A stretch of DNA of 64,000 bases, taken from Alphaproteobacteria bacterium. GTDB taxonomy: Bacteria; Pseudomonadota; Alphaproteobacteria; Micropepsales; Micropepsaceae. Where the stretch lies: the NCBI GenBank assembly GCA_021325375.1, contig JAJPHG010000018.1, positions 62,001 through 126,000 on the forward strand, given 5' to 3'. Of the stretch, positions 58,656-62,675 are shown in pieces. A program made the position numbers and the translations under genes. A model generated the notes under the pieces. The model worked only from the letters and a program-made list of their open reading frames with translations, was not told the DNA's origin and ran no database searches. Numbering within the stretch: the first letter of the stretch is position 1; each line of letters opens with the position of its first letter.

Positions 58656-58886
58656 CTAGGGGACTGTGTATCCCCGTCCACTACACGCCTTGCAAGAGGG
58701 CGGCGGTGGCTCATTTACCTGCGCAAAAACTTTCCGGAAATATGTGACGCCGTCGCCGCAAAGGGCACATCGACGATAATTGTTTCGACCATCTGCCATC
58801 CAAGTGCTGTGCTGGCAAATGGTGGTGCCCTTGCAATGTACACATTTGATGACTTGTTTGTTGTCTACGACGACGACATCCATCAT
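58656..58886 (-). CDS. Cys-rich zinc-ribbon-like small protein
   Basis: A 76-residue protein with four Cys motifs: IKCVHCKGTTIC, YRRCALCGDG and PSCKACSGRGY. The pairs C-x-x-C suggest zinc coordination, and the last part resembles a DnaJ-type CxxCxGxG unit. It lies inside the IS1-like element; its stop overlaps the inner edge of the left inverted repeat. Possibly a passenger gene. Start uncertain by one codon (MM). Confidence 0.5.
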   Translation of the reverse strand: MMDVVVVDNKQVIKCVHCKGTTICQHSTWMADGRNNYRRCALCGDGVTYFRKVFAQVNEPPPPSCKACSGRGYTVP

Positions 58887-58934
58887 CAGCCCCTTGATTT
58901 ATGCTCGGCCACTATAGCCGCGGCCGGGCCGCGT

Positions 58935-59135
58935 ATGTCCATGCGGCGCTTCACGCGCCTGACCAACGGCTTCTCGAAGAAGCTGGACAACCTCAAGGCC
59001 GCTGTGTCGCTGTACTTTGCGCATTGCAACATGGTCCGTATCCACAAGACCCTTCGCGTTATCCCTGCCGTGGCGGCAGGGGTTTCTGATAGGCTGTGGA
59101 CGCTCACGGAGTTGGTTGAGCAAACCTCCAAGTGA
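58935..59135 (+). pseudogene. C-terminal fragment of an IS1-family transposase
   Basis: The segment MSMRRFTRLTNGFSKKLDNL, KAAVSLYFAHCNMVRIHKTL, RVIPAVAAGVSDRLWTLTEL is the conserved C-terminal end of IS1-like (single-ORF) transposases, including the R-R-F-T-R-L-T-N and N-x-V-R-I-H-K-T-L-R-V motifs. The N-terminal HTH and the first catalytic Asp residues are absent upstream, so it cannot be functional. Confidence 0.8.
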
Positions 59136-59314: not shown

Positions 59315-59754
59315 AGGGCAGGCTCACCCTGACGTTCGCTTTGCGTCCGGCCCTTATGCCAGCCCCAACGGCATTTCGACTTTATGGTCGGGATTCGGTT
59401 CTCGCTCATGCGGTGAGGTAAAGCGCCGATCCGCAGTAAGAAAAGTGGCAAAGCGTCAGGAATTCAAATTAGGACAGCACCCCCCCTTGAACCGCAACGC
59501 AGCAAACACCACATCGCTTAAATCCCCACAATTGCGAGGACAGCTCGGGAGGCCGCGACGCGGTTCTCCGACGTGCCGTTTGCTTGAAGGTCTGCCGGCG
59601 CATGCGCGGTAGATCGCAAGTTCACGGCGCGGTGCAGAAATAAATTTCGACCCGTGTCGGGCTTTTTCGAAACGGGTTTCCCGCGGGCGGCGGAGCTATG
59701 CCCGAAACGCCGCGCAAAAGACGAAACGCGTTCTGTACAGAAGGGAGAACGAAC
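59315..59754. other. Gap with the right end of the IS1-like element
   Basis: About 440 nt without a convincing gene. It holds the right inverted repeat (59461-59480) and flank. The minus open frame at 59518-59775 has poor composition and is not called. The AAGGGAG of the next gene is at its end. Confidence 0.5.
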
Positions 59755-59931
59755 GTGCCTCAGATCAATTTCCATACGACGCCGCAGTTCGACGCCGATC
59801 TCGCGGCTCTGACCGAGGCGCTGAAGCTACGGTCCAAGTCGGAGGCGATCCGGCTCGCGGTGCACGAGTTCGCGGCCGCCTTGCGCGAGAGTGCCGCACG
59901 CAAGGCGCAGGCCGCGAAGCCTTCGCCTTGA
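59755..59931 (+). CDS. Small ribbon-helix-helix-like protein
   Basis: A 58-residue protein, GTG start with AAGGGAG upstream. MPQINFHTTPQFDADLAALT, EALKLRSKSEAIRLAVHEFA shows the RHH strand followed by two helices (the L-R-S-K-S-E-A-I-R-x-A motif of CopG-type proteins). It could be an orphan antitoxin or regulator. An upstream in-frame ATG at 59698 would add a non-homologous extension. Convergent with the Cys/His-rich gene. Confidence 0.7.
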   Translation: MPQINFHTTPQFDADLAALTEALKLRSKSEAIRLAVHEFAAALRESAARKAQAAKPSP

Positions 59932-59938
59932 GGCGAGG

Positions 59939-60754
59939 TCAGTGCGGGTACTGGCCGTCGTGATGGTCGCCGTCGTGATGATCGCCGTCATGCGGGCCGT
60001 CGTGATGGAGGTCGTCGCCGTGCGGACCGTCATGATACCCGCCGTCATGGTGATCGCCGTCATGGTGATCGCCGTCATGGTGATCGCCGTCGTGGTGGTC
60101 GCCATCGTGGTGGTCGCCATCGTGGTGATCGCCGTCATGGTGGTCGTTGTCGTGGATGATCACGGCGCCGGACGGCGCGCCTTCGCCGTACCAGCCGGCG
60201 TCGGGGCCTTCCTCGTCGTGCCAGGCGTCTTGATGGTGGTGATGGCGGTGATGCTCGTCGACGTAGCGGTTCTCGTAGTCTTCCGCCTGCTGCTCGTAGA
60301 CGTCGGTGTCCTCGCGGTAGCGCTCCTCGTCGTGGCGGAAGCGGTTGTGGTCGTGGCGGTAGATCTCTTCCTCATGCGCCACGCGGCGCTCATGGTCGCC
60401 GTCGTCCCAGCAATCGCGCTCGCAGCCGATGCCGCGCCAGCAATCGCCGTCGCAGCGCCGCCAGTTGCGGCAGCCGTGATCGCAATGCCGGTCGGCGTAG
60501 CAGTCGCGATAGCAATGCCGCTCGCCGCATCCGCTATGGCAGCGCCGTTCGCCGCATCCCGAATGGCAGCGGTCGTATTCGCCGCAGCCGTCCCAGCAGC
60601 CATTGTCGCCGAAATGGCGGAACTGGATCTCAGGGACGGGATCGAAGGGATCGAGCAGGACGGTGTCGTCGACCGCGACTTGCGCCCGTGCCGCGGGCGC
60701 GTGGATCAGCGTTAGGCTTAATGCGAGCGCGACAAGGGCCAGAAGCTTTCTCAT
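59939..60754 (-). CDS. Secreted protein with CxxxC repeats and an HHDGD tail
   Basis: A 271-residue protein with signal peptide (MRKLLALVALALSLTLIHAP, ARA-Q). Residues 53-115 hold 14 cysteines as seven C-x-x-x-C units spaced 9-10 residues apart (CWDGC, CHSGC, CHSGC, CYRDC, CDHGC, CDGDC, CERDC), interleaved with Arg/His. Residues 121-175 are acidic/His-rich (HRHHHH). Residues 205-238 are tandem HHDGD, followed by degenerate copies to the end. No known family recognised. The Cys and His content strongly suggests extracytoplasmic metal or heme binding. It follows the Sel1 gene by 9 bp and is probably its operon partner. The opposite strand is also open here (plus frame 59891-60715), but its product is a low-complexity Ala/Val run. 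Confidence 0.75.
   Translation of the reverse strand: MRKLLALVALALSLTLIHAPAARAQVAVDDTVLLDPFDPVPEIQFRHFGDNGCWDGCGEYDRCHSGCGERRCHSGCGERHCYRDCYADRHCDHGCRNWRRCDGDCWRGIGCERDCWDDGDHERRVAHEEEIYRHDHNRFRHDEERYREDTDVYEQQAEDYENRYVDEHHRHHHHQDAWHDEEGPDAGWYGEGAPSGAVIIHDNDHHDGDHHDGDHHDGDHHDGDHHDGDHHDGDHHDGGYHDGPHGDDLHHDGPHDGDHHDGDHHDGQYPH
60041..60142. repeat. 15-bp tandem repeat coding for HHDGD
   Basis: About seven near-identical 15-bp units, read on the plus strand as GTCATGGTGATCGCC with third-position changes to GTCGTGGTGGTCGCC and ATCGTGGTGGTCGCC. Copy number is likely to vary by slippage. Confidence 0.85.
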
Positions 60755-60763
60755 GGCTGTCTC

Positions 60764-62161
60764 CTAATGCTGCGGCGGACGCGAGGCGGCGAGCGCCAAC
60801 AGGTCCCCCAGCTGGTTCATCGTCGGGCGGAATCCTGCCAGCGCCGAGGCGGTGAAATAATCGTTGGCCTTCGACAGGTCCTGGTGGATACCGTCGGGCC
60901 CCACCTTGTAGAGCACGCCCAGGTGATAGAGCGCGGCGCCGTAGCGCTGGTCGGCCGCCTTCTTGAACCAGAACTCGGCGCGCACGAAGTTTCGCAGCAC
61001 TCCGATGCCGTGCGCGTACATCACGCCGAGCGCGTTCTGGGACTGGGCGTCGCCGCGCATCGCCGCGGTCTGGATCGCACGCACCGATTCCTGTGCGGTG
61101 AGACGGCCCGTCGGTGCGTCGACCAGGCTCGACTGGTAGCGCTGCACGCCCTGCGCCGTCGGCGTCCAGCCGAGGAAGACGAGGGCGTGCTCGACCGCGT
61201 GGGCCGGAAGCCCCGTGGCGGCGAGCACCAGCGCGCGCTGCTTGTCGAGGCCGGCATAGCACTCGTCCGTATACGGAACGCCGCTGGCGTTGGTGCCGGC
61301 CGGATAGAACTCGAACGGCGCCGACCAATAGCGCGCCTTCTGCGCTGCGTCCTCGGCGATGCGGTCGCCGAGCGGACGCTGCCTGCGCACGCCGCGCTCG
61401 AGCCCGCGCAGATATTCGCGCGCCAGCGGATGGCCCATATTGTCGGCGATGTGGAAATAGGTGAGCGCCTCGCCGTCGTTGCGCACGATCACCGAGCTCG
61501 ACTCCACGCCCATCATCTGGCGCGCCTGCGCCTCCTGGCCGTACTCGAACTCATGCTCCGAATTCCTGCGGAACGAATCGTAGGAGCGCGCCATTTCGGA
61601 AAGCCCGCCGTAAGTCGCCGGGCTGTCGTTGGCGAACTCGTTGCCGTAGGCGTTGTTGGCGCCGGTGGCGTGGATCTGGCCCAGCCGCACGAAGCCGTCG
61701 GCGCCGCGGCAGGAAAGGATATAGACGATGCGGTTGCGCGCCTCCTGCCGCTCCTCGGCGGAGAGCAGCACCATCAGCTTGTTCTCATGCACCAGCGCGC
61801 GGTGGAAATCGTTGGAGACGACGCGCCGCGCATAGCCGTCGCCGACATGCTCCCAGACGCGGGCCGAATGCGTGGCAAGGTAGTACCAGACATAGGATTC
61901 GACCGGATCGTAGAACTTGTTGTCGCCGTTCTCCGCGCCGTAGACGTCGCCGAGCTGGATCTGCGAGAGATAGTCGTCGTCGTTCCATGCCGATTTGCGC
62001 CAGATGCGGATCGCCGCTTCCTGGCTGATGCGCTTCTGCGCGATGACGCCGTCGGTGTAGTCGGCGGACGCAACGGCGGCGCCGAGCACAGCACCCGAGA
62101 TCCCGATCAGCGCGAAGATCGCGGCCCGCCCGGCCGCCTTGAAACGCTTTGTCCCACCCAT
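60764..62161 (-). CDS. Sel1-like repeat secreted/anchored protein
   Basis: A 465-residue protein with a hydrophobic N-terminal leader (AAIFALIGISGAVLGAAVAS) that could be a signal anchor or cleaved peptide. Helical repeats follow (QLGDVYGAENGDNKF, YVWYYLATHSARVWEH), and clear Sel1 units near the C-terminus: AAMRGDAQSQNALGVMYAHG and KKAADQRYGAALYHLGVLYK. A cysteine pair is at LSCRG and DECYAG. Sel1 proteins act as scaffolds for envelope or signalling complexes. It is first in a two-gene operon with the Cys/His-rich protein. Confidence 0.85.
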   Translation of the reverse strand: MGGTKRFKAAGRAAIFALIGISGAVLGAAVASADYTDGVIAQKRISQEAAIRIWRKSAWNDDDYLSQIQLGDVYGAENGDNKFYDPVESYVWYYLATHSARVWEHVGDGYARRVVSNDFHRALVHENKLMVLLSAEERQEARNRIVYILSCRGADGFVRLGQIHATGANNAYGNEFANDSPATYGGLSEMARSYDSFRRNSEHEFEYGQEAQARQMMGVESSSVIVRNDGEALTYFHIADNMGHPLAREYLRGLERGVRRQRPLGDRIAEDAAQKARYWSAPFEFYPAGTNASGVPYTDECYAGLDKQRALVLAATGLPAHAVEHALVFLGWTPTAQGVQRYQSSLVDAPTGRLTAQESVRAIQTAAMRGDAQSQNALGVMYAHGIGVLRNFVRAEFWFKKAADQRYGAALYHLGVLYKVGPDGIHQDLSKANDYFTASALAGFRPTMNQLGDLLALAASRPPQH

Positions 62162-62382: not shown

Positions 62383-62661
62383 TCAGGCGCCACGCCAGTA
62401 CTGCACCAGCGACCACGCCCCGATGGCGATGAAGCCGATGCCGGCGATCAGCTTGAGCGGCACGTGCTCGAGATAGCGCCCGCCATACGCGCCGATCACC
62501 ACAGAGATCGCGGAGCCCAGCACCAGCGCGCCGGCCGACGCGGCGAACACCATCCACGGCGAACGCTCGCGCTCGGAGGCGAAGAGAAGCGTGGCGAGCT
62601 GTGTCTTGTCGCCGAGCTCGGCGATGAAGATCGTGACGAACATCGTGATGAGCTGGCCCAT
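62383..62661 (-). CDS. Half-size GDT1/TMEM165 (UPF0016) family protein
   Basis: A 92-residue protein with three transmembrane segments and the UPF0016 motif E-L-G-D-K-T-Q-L near the start (TIFIAELGDKTQLATLLFAS). Full-size family members contain two such halves; single-domain forms work as dimers and are linked to manganese or calcium export. ATG 62661 follows GGAG; a TTG four codons upstream is the alternative. Confidence 0.85.
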   Translation of the reverse strand: MGQLITMFVTIFIAELGDKTQLATLLFASERERSPWMVFAASAGALVLGSAISVVIGAYGGRYLEHVPLKLIAGIGFIAIGAWSLVQYWRGA

Positions 62662-62675
62662 TCTTTTCTCCAATT

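Follow-up and report, generated by a model that had tools for sequence, protein, structure and literature searches.

Sel1 repeats, peptidoglycan-binding segments and β-helix proteins are known folds. The nearest functional parallels to the gene pair described here are AlgK with AlgG, ExoR, PodJ and YjbI, none of which is the pair itself. The AlgG epimerase is a β-helix, and the cysteines of the periplasmic copper storage protein Csp1 sit in CxxxC motifs. The periplasmic Sel1 domain of PodJ of Caulobacter is described as one that may contact peptidoglycan (PMC9926476). Csp1 forms a tetramer and carries a Tat signal (PMC7558416), the four-helix bundle being stated for the related Csp3, and a Sel1-repeat gene is located near the Caulobacter copper/iron genes cciT/cciO in less than 25% of genomes (PMC12004943). 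No description of a Sel1/partner pair was found in the literature searched, most subscription journals being outside its reach.

The window, which is the whole stretch of 64,000 nucleotides that was analysed, comes from a genome that was placed in the genus of Rhizomicrobium electricum (Rhizomicrobium, 69 genomes). In agreement with the first-pass annotation, the list of open reading frames contains two minus-strand genes separated by 9 bp, the first encoding a Sel1-repeat protein and the second a secreted Cys-rich protein (Table 1). On reading the sequence, an AGGAG is found that overlaps the stop codon of the Sel1 gene and lies 6 nt ahead of the second ATG.

Table 1. Position of the features of the Sel1/partner locus in the window.
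Feature	Position	Strand	Basis
Sel1-repeat periplasmic protein, 465 aa	60764..62161	-	Pfam Sel1, AlphaFold2 model, Foldseek
Peptidoglycan-binding-like segment, residues ~319-352 of Sel1 protein	61106..61207	-	Alignment with homologue L091
Best-scoring Sel1 repeat, residues 372-405	60947..61048	-	Pfam
AGGAG ribosome-binding-like site of second gene	60761..60765	-	Read from sequence
Secreted Cys/His/Asp-rich partner, 271 aa	59939..60754	-	ORF list, motif counts, relatives
Signal peptide, residues ~1-24	60683..60754	-	By eye: ARA/Q after a hydrophobic stretch
N-terminal motif LLDPFDPVPEIQF, residues 33-45, common to β-helix partners	60620..60658	-	Alignment and profile comparison
Seven-unit CxxxC array, residues 53-115	60410..60598	-	Motif count, shuffles, relatives
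Predicted long helix, residues 118-180, aromatics every 7	60215..60403	-	AlphaFold2 pLDDT and spacing
Tail with HHDGD repeats, residues 205-271, disordered by prediction	59942..60142	-	Motif count, AlphaFold2

Directly upstream of the pair lies a 96-residue gene of the GDT1 family (cation/proton antiporter; 62383-62673, minus strand; Pfam 71.7 bits). A metal context derived from this neighbour was set aside because the gene lists of the other Cys-type loci have no GDT1 gene between purH and the pair. On the other side, a small convergent gene (59698-59931, plus strand) resembles ribbon-helix-helix regulators (Pfam 17.8 bits, cut-off 20.5 bits), and 7 bases separate its stop from that of the Cys gene. 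Further on are a 76-residue open reading frame (58656-58886, minus strand) in which C-x2-C pairs occur several times and for which Pfam gives no more than weak matches to zinc-ribbon and DnaJ models, and an open reading frame (58809-59135, plus strand) that has no Pfam match and the C-terminus of which looks like an insertion-sequence transposase remnant.

The Sel1 assignment of the upstream gene is borne out by PF08238, which matches the window protein in two stretches with 52.9 bits against a cut-off of 30.7. Its AlphaFold2 model is nearly entirely helical (mean pLDDT 75.2), and the top Foldseek matches are solved Sel1 proteins with a probability of 1.00, at low whole-chain TM-scores of ~0.2. 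The peptidoglycan-binding-like segment aligns with residues 407-447 of the homologue L091, a stretch that passes the PG_binding_1 threshold (24.5 bits, cut-off 23), and attachment of the Sel1 protein to the wall is therefore plausible; the window protein itself has no PG_binding_1 (PF01471) match above the Pfam cut-off. The signal peptides of the Sel1 and partner proteins were assigned by eye. Likewise by eye, a lipobox-like VGC is seen in Caulobacter Sel1 homologues such as L118 and is missing from the window protein. A role in mercury handling was rejected, as the NCBIfam MerG match is confined to residues 356-430 of the Sel1 protein and scores 41 bits versus 350. An alignment also reveals an extra low-complexity insertion of ~100-170 residues in the Rhizomicrobium Sel1 proteins that are paired with β-helix partners (L068-L075), which the Sel1 proteins of the Cys type do not have.

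In the secreted protein, seven C-x-x-x-C units at a period of 9-10 residues and an HHDGD tail had been noticed at first sight, and both descriptions hold. The units start at residues 53, 63, 72, 81, 91, 101 and 111 (steps of 10, 9, 9, 10, 10 and 10), and the seven HHDGD units consist of six in tandem (residues 205-234) and one at residue 259. All 14 cysteines of the window protein have a partner at a distance of four residues, a regularity equalled in none of 200,000 segment shuffles; the count of C-x3-C pairs alone, which is a weaker statistic, was reached in 175 of 100,000 shuffles. Between the HHDGD copies, seven in all, four columns vary, each of them a third codon position, and the dN/dS of the Cys-type gene is 0.41 for the window against G076, 0.22 for G028-G029 and 0.34 for G029-G084, values that point to purifying selection. 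It is thus very likely that the frame is translated, on which the first-pass annotation depended.

The AlphaFold2 model of the secreted protein, obtained with nine alignment rows, has a mean pLDDT of 54.5 and a disordered tail. No fold and no helix of note are predicted for the CxxxC array (block pLDDT 36-53, mostly below 50), and block values of 69-91 are reached across residues 121-180. Within the predicted helix the aromatic residues are spaced by 7, 7, 7, 7 and 4 residues, and mostly by 7 in G076, G004 and G072, these three and the window protein being the four in which the heptads were checked. The signal looks Sec-type by eye. The protein has no family in Pfam, NCBIfam or PHROGs, and a PDB search gave a chance-level match only, to an interferon (E = 0.39), that was set aside as an effect of composition; a keratin-associated match of L066 (16.3 bits versus 21.1) was discarded for the same reason. 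A β-helix domain is absent from the window partner, with no Pfam match and no match to the β-helix profile genome-wide at E = 1e-5. A plasmid origin was set aside, since tblastn with residues 1-241 matched 0 of 72,556 plasmid records.

A profile of the Sel1 protein matches 24 of the 69 genomes of the genus at E = 1e-30, and the pair, proposed at first from one genome, is adjacent by coordinates in all 24. A β-helix partner profile matches 14 of the 69, each time next to the Sel1 gene, and the Cys-type profile accounts for the remaining ten of the 24 (G000, G004, G013, G022, G028, G029, G034, G072, G076 and G084), again each time next to the Sel1 gene. The two partner types are mutually exclusive beside a Sel1 gene. 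Besides its Cys-type pair, G013 has a second, distant Sel1 gene with a neighbour that matches the β-helix HMM (E = 2.8e-6), a match that is not among the 14 of 69 listed at E = 1e-5. The counts include partial records, since the β-helix of G019 is truncated and the Sel1 gene of G073 begins at a contig end; G034 has an additional Sel1 fragment at a contig edge. The Cys-type profile also matches the N-termini of three β-helix partners (E = 1.1e-5 to 4.5e-4).

In the wider family a Sel1 gene is found in 34 of 96 genomes: the 24 of Rhizomicrobium, nine of a second genus, all of which have a β-helix partner by HMM, and G100 from a third genus. The partner in G100 (L234:1073-2002, plus strand) combines a DPYTFPNI motif with a Cys/His-rich linker, in which the cysteines form C-x4-C, C-x6-C and C-x5-C pairs, and a partly masked stretch. 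Having matched neither an HMM nor a Pfam family, it was assigned to no partner type; it may be an intermediate between the β-helix and Cys types. Searching the 96 family genomes with the Cys-type profile returned only the ten Cys-type genomes and the three β-helix N-termini, and in a sample of 385 genomes of the class, with at most 6 candidates scored per genome, the genome of the window is the only one among the matches listed. Both searches speak against a wider origin of the Cys type.

Beyond the family, a scan of named genomes covered the best 80 of 181 Sel1 loci, mostly from Caulobacteraceae at ~30% identity. The gene that follows Sel1 in these 80 is a β-helix protein in 73 (70 by HMM, L091 by Pfam, L092 by eye and the truncated L096) and of the Cys type in six (L079, L080, L081, L082 as a fragment only, L083 and L084), and in one (L151) the contig ends after Sel1. 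Of these 80 loci, L108 and L150 at least share an assembly, and several duplicate records of genomes already counted above. Of the 71 matches of the β-helix HMM, one is the Cys-type L083 and 11 are the proteins from which the HMM was seeded. Named relatives that have the pair are Caulobacter, Brevundimonas and Rhizomicrobium electricum. The β-helix partners of Caulobacter and Rhizomicrobium are homologous (hhalign 99.2%, E = 3.2e-19); Pfam Beta_helix scores above its cut-off in all four tested Rhizomicrobium partners and in L091, and below it in L118, L153 and L230. In the L118 locus of Caulobacter vibrioides, a third secreted-looking gene of 212 residues (L118:8790-9425, plus strand) overlaps the end of the β-helix gene by four bases. 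It has no Pfam family above the cut-off and may belong to the ancestral operon as a third gene.

Nine full Cys-type proteins could be aligned, the tenth partner, that of G034, breaking off at a contig end right behind the motif. The Cys spacing first seen in the window carries over to most relatives, in that 112 of the 120 mature cysteines are part of a CxxxC, but G013 has a single unit. The remaining eight cysteines belong to four proteins that have one C-x4-C pair apiece. With one unit in G013, the array is not essential to the pair. For every mature cysteine in the nine proteins there is a second one at +4 or +5, so that none stands alone, and their number is even in all nine. The number of CxxxC units runs from one in G013 to 19, counted with overlaps, in G004, with C-[DE]-[RDH]-[DG]-C as the commonest residues. 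Of the His/Asp tail that had been described, the Asp-rich end is kept in the relatives, and the Asp content is 13-18% in all nine proteins; the His-rich end is restricted to the six of nine that have at least ten histidines in their last 70 residues. The corresponding numbers for G076, G013 and G022 are 2, 2 and 5, and hence the exact HHDGD tail is no common feature of the Cys-type proteins. A heme buffer, which was one of the functions first suggested, was abandoned, as CxxCH occurs in none of the nine proteins (the window and eight relatives). The alignment contains 18 invariant columns, of which ten fall in residues 33-45; the first CxxxC pair is invariant as well.

The motif in residues 33-45 is common to both partner types. 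When the Cys-type and β-helix partner profiles are compared, they align with a probability of 94.9% (hhalign, E = 4.2e-8) over 39 columns that are confined to the signal peptide and the motif (DPFDPVPEI). Of the 14 β-helix partners of the genus, 12 contain P[FY]D[PA]VP[ED][IV], and with G083, which keeps DPYDPVP, the motif is clear in 13; the β-helix partner in G064 has no clear N-terminal motif. The Caulobacteraceae partners resemble it no more than loosely, at LL(D/E)P, by eye. The window's genome has no second significant copy of the motif, the next best match having E = 0.147. The earlier impression of a protein unlike any family thus stands for the family databases and falls for the N-terminus, which places the protein with the secreted β-helix partners of the Sel1 gene in one wider family. 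As a consequence, the secreted protein has relatives, and the Cys array is the lineage-specific part in an older pair.

In a midpoint-rooted tree of the Sel1 proteins, in which some rows are on long branches, all ten Cys-type rows form one clade (99/96) that requires one change. Since Caulobacteraceae and the second genus also pair Sel1 with a β-helix protein, this partner is probably the ancestral state, with the Cys type as the derived one. In seven aligned β-helix partners, a linker with cysteine and rich in His, Asp and Gly stands at about the place of the array, which suggests that the array may have grown from this linker when the β-helix was lost. By Pfam, purH is upstream of all eight tested Cys-type loci, directly or with one gene between, and it was not seen in the gene lists of three β-helix loci (L188, L189 and L074). 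With the two partner types at different chromosomal places, an old duplication that left ancient paralogues, followed by loss, is possible instead of replacement in place.

We read the two genes as a cell-envelope scaffold-client pair in which the Sel1 protein holds its client via the motif and the Cys chain serves as a metal buffer or disulfide cross-linker, and we put the probability of this reading at roughly 0.45. The Sel1 protein would be exported to the periplasm, where its helical superhelix with a degenerate peptidoglycan-binding-like segment would hold the co-translated secreted partner through LLDPFDPVPEI; this binding and this location are what we infer. For Caulobacteraceae and the remaining Sel1-positive family members examined, the unclassified G100 apart, the working part of the client would be a right-handed β-helix. 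In one Rhizomicrobium branch the β-helix is absent and the linker after the motif would have grown into the CxxxC array, with an acidic, often His-rich tail and, in some members, also an aromatic heptad helix. The Cys chain would then most likely be a ligand of high capacity and little structure, located at the outer membrane or the cell wall, buffering metal when its thiols are reduced and cross-linking through disulfides when they are oxidised. Metal binding by the Cys-type protein is possible, and cross-linking through disulfides has a similar likelihood. The window's genome encodes DsbB, so disulfides are possible, and the acidic setting, together with histidines in most Cys-type members, makes the chain suited to metals too.

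A further-reaching version, which we regard as tentative and rather unlikely, would have a portable N-terminal docking peptide bound by the Sel1 protein as its dedicated receptor in the periplasm, the attached part having been swapped from a β-helix to a CxxxC/His-Asp chain. If this were true, the array would represent a new class of metal-templated or disulfide-zipped, wall-tethered and tunable metal/redox buffer.

The pairing of the cysteines can also be taken as the mark of a disulfide-linked structural or matrix polymer, in which the CxxxC units would zip chains together at the surface, the aromatic heptad helix would oligomerise and the Sel1 protein would be the wall anchor. We consider this unlikely, although it has several observations on its side: no mature cysteine is alone in any of the nine proteins, their number is always even, aromatic heptads are present in all four proteins examined, DsbB is encoded and the number of units varies freely. 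However, the even number follows from the pairing and is hence not independent of it, and the chain is highly charged.

Somewhat more doubtful still is that the protein is foremost a buffer for copper, zinc or a similar metal, with the array and the His/Asp tail binding soft or borderline metals and the Sel1 protein as loader or anchor only, in line with the first-pass annotation. Acidic, Arg and His residues between the CxxxC cysteines are consistent with this function, as are the Asp content of all nine proteins, the C-terminal histidines of six and the His-rich linkers of several β-helix partners; the Sco-type Cu site consists of a CxxxC and a distant His according to PMC7558416. Yet the gene lists read around the loci show no metal-related neighbour that is conserved, G013 has one CxxxC only, and together with G022 and G076 it ends with few histidines (2-5). 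The periplasm is moreover probably oxidising, DsbB being encoded.

An envelope-stress regulator, in which the Sel1 protein would act on a two-component sensor in the manner of ExoR and the partner would be a ligand or redox sensor, is improbable. It has two published precedents: ExoR, a periplasmic Sel1 protein, binds the ExoS sensor in Sinorhizobium (PMC7327166), and YjbI, a secreted β-helix protein of Caulobacter with Cys pairs, dampens envelope signalling (PMC12864828). Against these stand the NCBIfam ExoR equivalog score of the window Sel1 protein, which at 14.9 versus a cut-off of 450 led us to reject an identity with ExoR, and the absence of a common neighbour, signalling-type genes being seen by eye only near L193 and L074 among ten gene lists. 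Finally, that the Cys-type gene is a functionless leftover of a β-helix gene drifting by repeat slippage is very improbable, since low complexity, a variable repeat number and the near lack of cysteines in G013 are outweighed by dN/dS values of 0.22-0.41, the CxxxC pairing kept in 112 of 120 cysteines, a motif core that is invariant in nine of nine proteins and the presence of the gene or its start in all ten Cys-type genomes.

An orphan Cys-rich protein is now linked to a conserved envelope gene pair, and the short common motif provides a concrete binding hypothesis. If the scaffold-client reading is right, the pair would be an envelope scaffold whose secreted client was exchanged while the docking sequence stayed, and the Cys type would contain a new thiol-rich periplasmic repeat chain.

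Among the described systems, the periplasmic Csp1 proteins are alike in being exported and Cys-rich. The window protein may differ from them in its array, for which no helix of note is predicted at a pLDDT mostly below 50; its signal looks Sec-type by eye and it matches no Pfam family. YjbI is likewise secreted and has Cys pairs flanking a β-helix, but this is a pentapeptide-repeat quadrilateral helix (PMC12864828); the word Sel1 has 0 occurrences in the text of that paper. PodJ, likened here by its description, shares an alphaproteobacterial Sel1 domain with possible peptidoglycan contact and is unlike the window protein in having a transmembrane segment and coiled coils (PMC9926476). AlgK and AlgG resemble the pair in that a Sel1-like superhelix, in AlgK a lipoprotein, works with secreted enzymes (PMC9384988). 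In contrast, AlgK ranks only 27th in Foldseek (E = 0.0099) and the window's branch has no β-helix partner; no other alginate-export genes were seen by eye in the gene lists read around the pair loci. The Sel1-like proteins at large (PF08238; PDB entries 6ok3, 8sxq and 4bwr, and AlgK, 3e4b) are alike in their repeats above the cut-off, the helical model and the Foldseek matches. Compared with these, the window protein has in addition a peptidoglycan-binding-like segment between the repeats and a dedicated secreted partner gene.
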